Source of the DNA: Bacteroidota bacterium
GTDB taxonomy: Bacteria > Bacteroidota > Ignavibacteria > SZUA-365
Assembly (NCBI GenBank): GCA_029907355.1
Contig: JARYLZ010000006.1
Coordinates: 1-64,000, forward strand
DNA length: 64,000 bases
Reading direction: 5' to 3'
Shown here piece by piece: positions 41,488-44,257 of the stretch; the first letter of the stretch is position 1; each line of letters begins with the position of its first letter. The position numbers and the translations under genes were made by a program. The notes below the pieces were generated by a model. That model had not been told where the DNA came from. It saw only the letters and a program-made list of their open reading frames with translations, and searched no databases.

Positions 41488-42711
41488 ATGGCAAGTCCGT
41501 TCCACACGATCGAAGAGGCGATCGAAGATATCCGGGCCGGGCGCGTCATCATCATCGTCGATGACGAGGACCGGGAGAACGAGGGGGACTTCGTCTGCGC
41601 CGCAGAGACGGTGACGCCCGATATCGTCAATTTCATGATCACCGAGGGGAGGGGGCTGGTCTGCGTCCCTCTCACCGAGGAACGGATGCGCGATCTCGGC
41701 CTCGACATGATGGTCGACACGAATACGGCGATTCACGGGACGAATTTCACCGTTTCCGTCGATGCCGTGCACGGTACGACGACCGGCATTTCGGCGACCG
41801 ACCGTACGGTCACGATCCGTGCCCTGGCCGACCCCGCGACGAAACCGCGCGACCTTGCCCGGCCGGGGCACATCTTTCCGCTCCGCGCCGTGGACGGCGG
41901 GGTATTACGCCGCGCCGGGCATACGGAAGCCGTGGTCGACCTAGCCCGTCTCGCAGGTCTCAGGCCTGTCGGCGTACTCTGCGAGATCCTGAACCCCGAC
42001 GGGACCATGGCGCGTGTCCCGCAACTCCTGGAAATTTCCGAGCGATTCGGATTGAAGATCATCTCGGTGCAGGACCTGATCGCATACCGGGTCCGAAAGG
42101 AAAAGTTGGTGCGCAAGCAGACGTCCGCGCGCCTCCCGACGCGTTACGGGAATTTCGTCATCCATCTCTACGAGAGCATCCTCGACGGGAAGGAGCATCT
42201 CGCCCTCGTCCGCGGCGATCTCTCCACCGACGAACCGGTCCTCGTCCGCGTGCACTCCGAGTGTATCACGGGAGATACCTTCGGTTCCCTCCGATGCGAC
42301 TGCAAGGACCAATTGAATTCCGCGATGATGATGGTCGAGCGCGAAGGACGGGGCGTGATCCTGTACATGCGGCAGGAAGGGCGCGGCATCGGCCTCGCGA
42401 ACAAACTGCGCGCATACAATCTCCAGGACGAAGGACTCGACACCGTCGAGGCGAACCGTGAGCTCGGTTTCCGTGACGATTTGCGCGATTACGGCATCGG
42501 TGCCCAGATTCTCGCGGATCTCGGAGTCAGGAAAATGCGCCTCCTGACGAATAACCCGAAGAAAATCGTCGGTCTCCAGAGTTACGGATTGGAAATCGTG
42601 GAGCGGGTCCCGATCGAAACCATCCCCACTCCTGCCAACGAGTTCTACCTGCGGACGAAACGCGATAAAATGGGACATCTCATCGACTTTCACCGTCACG
42701 AACATCCCTGA
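41488..42711 (+). CDS. ribBA: Bifunctional DHBP synthase / GTP cyclohydrolase II
   Basis: A 407-residue fusion for riboflavin synthesis. Residues 1-205 are 3,4-dihydroxy-2-butanone-4-phosphate synthase: '[17 protein letters not shown]', '[20 protein letters not shown]', '[20 protein letters not shown]'. Residues 210-400 are GTP cyclohydrolase II: zinc site '[18 protein letters not shown]', '[20 protein letters not shown]' and '[20 protein letters not shown]'. Both active sites look intact. It closes the tgt-yajC-ribBA run; no FMN-riboswitch pattern is seen upstream. Confidence 0.96.
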
Positions 42712-43664
42712 TCGCAGAGGCCGAAGAGAGATATTTCCTGACGCGCATGCGGGGAAACGTCGAATCGTCGGTCTCCAAGCGCAAGTCGTAGGTTTCGCCT
42801 CAACGGCTTCAGCGGAAGCGTTTCGATGTCGCACTGCACTTGCGGCGTACGTCTTCGAAGAAGGAAGGGATGAAACGTGGCACCTGCAGAAGCGGACCTT
42901 CCGCTGCCGAGGCAAGTGCACGCACAGTGCACACGCCCAGCGGAAGGGCTCGGTGATCCAAGTGCCCTGCCACAACATCCCGTCGAGCTTTCAGCTCTGC
43001 AGGTATTGAGAAATGTCGGGAGTCCAACGGCAAGAGGGATGTATCGCCGAGTTTCGTGCCTCACGTGGCGTAAAGACATGGACACGAGCAGGCTTTCTCG
43101 TGCGTGTCTGTGCCGTCGTTTGTCGGTGATGAACCCGGAATGAACACCCCTCCACACCAGTGGTATTTGACCCCCCTCGAGGTGACACTTCCGCACAACC
43201 TGGGCGTTTCATCGCCATTGCGTAAAGGGGAGAACACTGTGATGAAGTGCGCATGTTCGCAGTGGGGGAATGGTTCGAGAACTTCGGTCCCAAGGTTGCC
43301 CAACGGACCGGCATACCCCTGCGTCCGAGAACCTGCCACTGCGATGTGGCACCGGCGAACGTGAATGCGCGTCGAAGGAATCGCTTCACGGGTGCTGACG
43401 GCGCACTCTCCTCGACCCGGCGGGAATTCGTGCACCTGATCGATCCCCGACGGGTCCCATGGCCGGGGAATTGTTCTTTATCAACCCATCGAGGAATCTC
43501 GAGCCGAGCCGGCTTGTTCTATCCCCATTTCTCTCGACCTCGCACCCAGACCTCTCCCATCCTTCTGCCGGAAAAAACAGCGTGGTGTCGCATTTCCCTT
43601 CGACCGTACACCCTGACATTCCTCACGCAGCCATACCCTGATCGGGCTTAACCGGGATGTCCCA
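42712..43664. other. Gene-free block of about 950 bases between ribBA and greA
   Basis: No open stretch on either strand shows a protein-family signature. Inverted repeats are dense: besides the structured patch at 42802-42966 listed separately, there are GACACGAG (43081-43088) with CTCGTG-cg-TGTC (43097-43108), CGGTCC (43285-43290) with GGACCG (43305-43310), TGCCAC (43334-43339) with GTGGCA (43346-43351), and TCCCCG (43444-43449) with CGGGGA (43464-43469). Several may be chance in GC-rich DNA. It could be a decayed gene, an unrecognised structured RNA, or both. Confidence 0.5.
42802..42966. ncRNA. Candidate structured RNA element downstream of ribBA (unassigned)
   Basis: Perfect complementary arms cluster here: CCTTCCGCTG (42897-42906) with CAGCGGAAGG (42938-42947); TGCACTTGC (42835-42843) with GCAAGTGCA (42912-42920); an outer pair GGCAC (42879-42883) with GTGCC (42962-42966); and a local hairpin AACGGCTTC-AGCG-GAAGCGTT (42802-42821). 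A second copy of CAGCGGAAG at 42810-42818 could pair with CTTCCGCTG instead, giving alternative folds and a possible pseudoknot. The coding strand of such an RNA is not determined, and no known family was recognised; function is not claimed. Confidence 0.35.
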
Positions 43665-43696
43665 CTTGCCATCGAATGGATAAAAATGTACTTTTG
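43665..43696 (+). promoter_or_regulatory. Bacteroidota-type promoter of greA
   Basis: CTTG (43665-43668) and TACTTTTG (43689-43696) match the superphylum's -33 TTTG / -7 TAnnTTTG pattern at 20-base spacing. The -7 box overlaps a palindrome TGTAC-TTTT-GTACA (43687-43700) that could serve as an operator. Transcription would begin near 43702, at the first base of the leader hairpin. Confidence 0.6.
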
Positions 43697-43701
43697 TACA
43701 C

Positions 43702-43741
43702 CATAGCCAGTTTTCCGGCCGGAACGCTGGCTATGTTTTTT
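43702..43741 (+). terminator. Leader hairpin with T-run before greA (terminator/attenuator)
   Basis: Perfect 9-base arms CATAGCCAG (43702-43710) and CTGGCTATG (43727-43735) enclose a loop that itself contains TTTTCCGGCCGGAA; TTTTTT follows at once. This is a textbook intrinsic terminator in form. It lies 37 bases before the greA start and immediately after its predicted promoter, so it would form the 5' end of the greA message. Confidence 0.75.
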
Positions 43742-43777
43742 ATTCATTTTTAAGCTGAAAGGACGGAGGCCGTATCC

Positions 43778-44257
43778 GTGGAACCGGGCGGAACGACATA
43801 CCTTACCCGCGAAAGGTTGCGGGAACTGGAGCAGGAACTGCACGAGATGAAAACCAAGGGCCGTGCAGAGATCGCCGCGAAAATCGCGGAAGCGCGTTCG
43901 CACGGCGACCTCATGGAAAACGCGGAGTACGATGCCGCGAAAGAGGAACAGAATCTCTTCGAGATGCGCATCAAAAAGCTCGAGCAGATCCTTGCCCGGG
44001 CTCGCGTTATCGATTCCAAGGATTTGCCGAACGACGCCGTCTACATCCTGAGCAACGTCACCCTCGAGAATATGAATACAGGTGAACGTGTCACGTACAC
44101 TCTCGTTTCAGCGGACGAAGCGGATTTCGAACGGAACAAGCTCTCCGTCACCTCGCCCGTCGGCAAGGCGCTCCTGAAGAAAAAGGTCGGCGACCACGTG
44201 AAAATCGTCGTCCCTGCCGGGACGATCGAGTATCGTATCCTTGAAATCACCCGTTGA
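43778..44257 (+). CDS. greA: Transcription elongation factor GreA
   Basis: A 159-residue GreA protein that rescues backtracked RNA polymerase by stimulating transcript cleavage. The N-terminal coiled-coil hairpin is clear ('RERLRELEQELHEMKTKGRA', 'IAEARSHGDLMENAEYDAAK'), with the acidic tip Asp/Glu in 'GDLMENAEYD', and the C-terminal FKBP-like domain ('FERNKLSVTSPVGKALLKKK') follows. The start is a GTG eight bases after GGAGG. A terminator-like hairpin stands between its promoter and the start codon, which suggests leader control. Confidence 0.95.
   Translation: MEPGGTTYLTRERLRELEQELHEMKTKGRAEIAAKIAEARSHGDLMENAEYDAAKEEQNLFEMRIKKLEQILARARVIDSKDLPNDAVYILSNVTLENMNTGERVTYTLVSADEADFERNKLSVTSPVGKALLKKKVGDHVKIVVPAGTIEYRILEITR

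Follow-up and report, generated by a model that had tools for sequence, protein, structure and literature searches.

A conserved hairpin between the predicted promoter and the start codon of greA is probably a promoter-proximal attenuator in Bacteroidota

The greA gene in the DNA analyzed here, a stretch of 64,000 nucleotides from a Bacteroidota bacterium (the window), is preceded by a hairpin and U tract that we interpret as a promoter-proximal intrinsic terminator attenuating greA, with a probability of roughly three in four. Because the same layout is found in relatives across the phylum, the hairpin is probably an inherent brake on GreA synthesis, not a chance structure or the end signal of a neighboring gene. 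The established part of this reading comprises the sequence features themselves, the conservation of promoter, hairpin, and U tract as a unit, and the specificity of this unit for greA.

The greA gene (43778–44257, + strand) begins with a GTG codon, is preceded by the Shine–Dalgarno-like sequence GGAGG (43765–43769), and encodes the transcription-rescue protein GreA, 159 amino acids long and carrying both GreA Pfam domains. It is the sole GreA/GreB-family gene of the genome, and its product is 46% identical to Escherichia coli GreA with the HGDLxENAEY tip residues kept. Since the next gene downstream lies on the opposite strand, greA is the only gene of its unit. Its upstream neighbor, ribBA (41488–42711, + strand), ends about 1 kb before the hairpin. 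The intervening region (42712–43664) is about 950 nt long and holds no recognizable gene, its open reading frames lacking Pfam matches; in other family members, the gap between the two genes is mostly about 100 to 270 nt.

The terminator hairpin (CATAGCCAG-TTTTCCGGCCGGAACG-CTGGCTATG, 43702–43735, + strand) is supported by its predicted fold, by conservation and covariation, and by covariance-model hits. Its outer stem of 9 bp pairs CATAGCCAG with CTGGCTATG (43702–43710 with 43727–43735), and an inner stem pairs TTCC with GGAA (43713–43716 with 43721–43724). The conserved U tract, TTTTTTATT (43736–43744), follows directly and consists of TTTTTT (43736–43741) and then ATT; the GTG codon at 43778 is located 36 nt downstream of the TTTTTT run. 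RNAfold assigns the stem −20.6 kcal/mol with 14 pairs in all, and the 46-nt segment from 43703 to 43748 scores −18.7 against a mean of −7.6 for dinucleotide shuffles (z = −5.2), a value equaled by none of 200 shuffles. The 9-base hairpin followed by TTTTTT that the original prediction placed ahead of the greA start codon is therefore present at 43702–43741 and folds far better than shuffled sequence.

Upstream of this hairpin is a candidate promoter. A −35/−33-like element, TTGCCA (43666–43671), is separated by a 17-bp spacer from a −10/−7 element, TACTTTTG (43689–43696), that conforms to TAnnTTTG. The spacing of these + strand elements predicts a transcription start at 43700–43703, a +1 that would coincide with the foot of the hairpin. 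The arrangement of a TAnnTTTG promoter with its start at the hairpin foot, as originally proposed, thus remains a prediction from sequence, and its layout is conserved in relatives. When positions are counted from TAGCCAG of the hairpin, the TA at −15/−14 and the TT at −11/−10 are present in 10 to 11 of 11 family genomes, and the −35-like element, which reads TTGAC in 10 family members, occupies −38 to −34 in most. The distance from promoter to hairpin is nearly constant in the family (TTGAC-N17-TAnnTT). Among loci of the class, TAnnTTTG directly precedes the greA hairpin in 49 of 86 cases (shuffle mean 17.8, maximum 30), most often 4 to 6 nt from the first G-C pair of the hairpin, versus 9 of 82 at a control site 120 nt upstream. 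The corresponding count in other classes of the phylum is 25 of 39 loci (shuffle mean 7.9, maximum 16). An intrinsic terminator therefore lies between the predicted greA promoter, with its predicted start, and the start codon.

A palindrome, TGTACTTTTGTACA (43687–43700), does overlap the −10 element, as the original prediction had also stated, but a role for it finds no support. It is missing from all 10 other family members, and the window contains one palindrome of this kind (5 bp with a 4-nt gap) per 761 nt, so that we rejected it as a conserved feature and regard it as probably incidental. The TGTAC-N4-GTACA pattern has one other copy in the genome (contig C101, position 16694).

The same hairpin is found upstream of greA in 10 other genomes of the family (n = 11 with the present one) and in 3 more genomes of the order. 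In pairwise comparisons of the 11 family genomes, the two hairpin arms average 0.93 and 0.94 identity, TTTTTTATT averages 0.94, and the inner part of the hairpin averages 0.73, compared with 0.29 for the promoter spacer, 0.27 for the upstream sequence, 0.38 for the rest of the leader, and 0.36 for the fourfold sites of greA. The fact that conservation so far exceeds that of the fourfold sites and flanks indicates that the hairpin is not a product of chance. Likewise, the U tract (TTTTTT then ATT) is invariant or nearly so in the 14 family and order members. A family-level covariance model, with which the best 150 first-look candidates per genome were scored, identifies one place per genome in these 14 genomes, always upstream of greA; the hit listed second is this place read on the opposite strand. 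As the model was built from those 14 sequences, only the uniqueness of the hits is informative. Conservation in relatives had been suggested as a check, and it extends to the promoter-then-terminator layout, the predicted start at the hairpin foot, and the association with greA.

Support from covariation comes from an alignment of 30 class hairpins drawn from many families, wherein GCC/GGC is invariant and the outer and inner pairs covary. Compensatory changes are observed in 8 of 12 pairs, 60 cells are changed on both sides versus 23.5 in shuffles, and the covariation score is 0.448, compared with 0.148 for shuffled and at most 0.097 for slid alignments. We ran a class-level covariance model on 149 genomes and matched its hits against greA positions. 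In genomes outside its training set, 14 of the 27 hits at E ≤ 0.002 sit 27 to 104 nt upstream of greA, where almost none are expected by chance. The off-target hits that were inspected resemble generic AAAAGCCA...TGGCTTTT terminators, and a shared regulon among them was rejected for this reason.

Within the class, 80 of 116 greA genes have a terminator-like hairpin in front of them, as do 35 of 40 from the phylum's other classes, whereas only 27 of 295 control genes (from 20 random 20-kb pieces and the window) carry one, a comparison in which control starts are approximate because they follow a simple longest-ORF rule, and in which the hairpin-to-start distance allowed was 15 to 125 nt for greA and 15 to 110 nt for controls. 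Restricting the controls to co-oriented genes with 60- to 250-nt gaps gives 10 of 62. The association of the hairpin with greA is thus conserved, and its stem sequences differ by lineage. In the other classes (loci L122–L161), nearly every sampled genome has a hairpin before greA whose stem is conserved per lineage, such as CAACGCC/GGCGTTG, AAAGTCAGC/GCTGACTTT, or AAACCTGG/CCAGGTTT, often directly after TAnnTTTG.

The closest known counterpart is the greA leader of E. coli, which yields the short RNA GraL (Potrykus 2010; Dylewski 2019, PMC6829880; Rfam RF01769). Both systems place a promoter and then an intrinsic terminator in the greA 5′ UTR, with a U tract a few tens of nucleotides after the start. 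The likeness drawn with E. coli in the original prediction is functional and does not extend to sequence. RF01769 recovers the E. coli greA leader used as a positive control (127.5 bits, E = 4e-23) but gives no match in the window or in the related loci scanned (E ≤ 1), and a permissive Rfam threshold returns nothing at the window. Conversely, the E. coli hairpin is without the GCCA/TGGC core found here. The E. coli leader also has 19 nt before its terminator and two promoters, whereas the present hairpin begins at the predicted +1 in a more compact arrangement. Judged by its sequence layout, the element is probably, in function, a greA-leader attenuator of the GraL type, and it falls outside RF01769.

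In E. coli, read-through of the greA leader terminator amounts to about one third of transcripts, and GreA with an intact cleavage function represses its own gene via the leader in cis (PMC6829880). This effect was observed only in vivo and not in vitro, for which reason a further factor is suspected, and it also needed sequence ahead of the terminator (PMC6829880). Such sequence is absent here, which counts against the parallel. The E. coli leader is itself hard to classify, according to its authors. Premature terminators before greA/rnk were likewise identified by comparative prediction in Proteobacteria, Bacilli, and Clostridia, with an antiterminator reported in each cluster (Naville and Gautheret 2010, PMC2965389), whereas the present leaders have no upstream RNA from which one could form. 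Bacteroidetes are not mentioned in that study, and our literature search for Bacteroidota greA leaders found none. Ordinary AAAAGCCA...TGGCTTTT terminators, which are the off-target model hits noted above, share the stem and U tract; those examined are mostly near gene ends and lack an adjacent promoter, in contrast to the greA element, which separates promoter from start codon and shows far stronger conservation. That this layout recurs, built from unrelated sequence, across a second phylum points to early termination as a widespread brake on greA.

In the mechanism we propose, RNA polymerase would start at 43700–43703, and the RNA would therefore fold from its first nucleotides. By the time polymerase arrives at the U tract (about +35 to +41), the hairpin would be complete, and many complexes would stop there and free an RNA of about 40 nt. 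Complexes that read through would produce an mRNA capped by a 5′ stem, with GreA translated from the GTG at 43778. Termination is presumably partial in the cell, and the extent of read-through probably depends on the state of the elongating polymerase. By analogy with E. coli, negative feedback by GreA itself is plausible and would most likely be part of this control.

Because nothing precedes the hairpin, no upstream antiterminator can form. A competing antiterminator fold was considered and rejected, as the hairpin starts at the predicted +1 and the leader fold leaves it intact; an earlier transcription start would alter this conclusion. Since the RNA would begin with the hairpin itself, control would have to operate via polymerase that pauses or backtracks, a factor recognizing the conserved stem, or a choice of start site that trims the stem foot; combined with stem conservation beyond pairing, this suggests that control lies with the state of the polymerase, with such a factor, or with the start site chosen. 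Indeed, the near-invariance of the stem exceeds what a plain terminator needs and counts against a simple attenuator reading. We also entertain, tentatively, a phylum-wide greA attenuator without an antiterminator, wherein a terminator folded from +1 carries a near-invariant stem that is read by the transcription machinery itself, such that polymerase state directly sets GreA supply. Jointly with that proposal, and just as tentatively, the stem readout could be promoter-proximal backtracking tuned by GreA, recognition by a dedicated factor, or trimming of the foot through start-site choice. Constraint on the stem sequence in excess of what pairing requires predicts a reader of the stem, and a terminator folded from +1 would offer a cleaner system for studying autoregulation by an elongation factor.

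Attenuation has to be weighed against other roles for the same structure. Protective stem-loops act at mRNA 5′ ends, which is where the hairpin is predicted to start, so it might shield greA mRNA from decay instead of terminating transcription; a stabilizer needs no U tract, however, whereas TTTTTTATT matches the stem in conservation (94%), and we consider this role improbable. Slightly less probable still is a main role for the freed short RNA as a trans-acting small RNA, control of greA being secondary. The trans effects of E. coli GraL (PMC6829880) and the stem conservation beyond pairing needs speak for this idea, but the predicted short RNA consists almost wholly of stem, leaving little sequence free, and its stem differs between classes. 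An inverted repeat that overlaps +1 and has conserved GCCA/TGGC half-sites could also be the DNA operator of a repressor. The spacing between those half-sites varies between species and across the class, as fits an RNA element and not an operator; moreover, the inner stem covaries and the U tract is conserved on one side only, leaving this the least probable reading by some way.

The alternative that deserves most attention is that the hairpin is a mere 3′ terminator of ribBA, located at the greA promoter by chance. It is serious because in many relatives ribBA is the gene directly upstream of greA, about 100 to 270 nt away, and because close spacing of the two genes is accompanied by loss of the hairpin. 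Specifically, the hairpin was not found in two families in which only a few tens of nucleotides separate ribBA from the greA behind it (f7 and f15), or in family f18, where greA is closely behind another gene. In the window, however, ribBA ends about 1 kb away and the hairpin stays beside greA. It also persists where other genes, opposite-strand ORFs, or no + strand ORF within about 450 nt lie upstream (L026, L027, L029, L034, L036, L040, L042, and L045). Families f11 and f13, with other genes or no nearby + strand ORF before greA, retain the hairpin, as does family f5 in weaker form behind an opposite-strand ORF. The hairpin thus follows greA and not its upstream gene, and a copy shifted ahead of ribBA was looked for in ribBA-greA families and not found. 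Its retention without ribBA upstream and its absence where greA comes directly after ribBA both speak for attenuation. Furthermore, the promoter sits at a nearly constant distance ahead of the hairpin, so that transcripts of greA have to pass through the hairpin. We therefore regard a ribBA terminator as unlikely and favor attenuation of greA, although in close relatives with gaps of 100 to 270 nt the same hairpin may also end ribBA transcripts.

Several families have further features of their own. In family f5, the greA hairpin is followed by only a weak U tract, and three genomes (G027, G045, and G054) encode, besides greA, a second diverged GreA-like protein that is 34 to 41% identical and partial in two of the three matches. 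In family f12 (L047, L053, and L054), the region between ribBA and greA holds a long hairpin of another kind, AGTGCTGAG...CTCAGCACT, that has a short T tract. Two genomes of family f7 (loci L182 and L185) have in common a conserved stretch, caggcggcaaacgttacaaaaatatagaatacgttttgctttaAAAGCCAC..., that ends in a terminator hairpin and lies upstream of an ORF of 350 to 365 amino acids.
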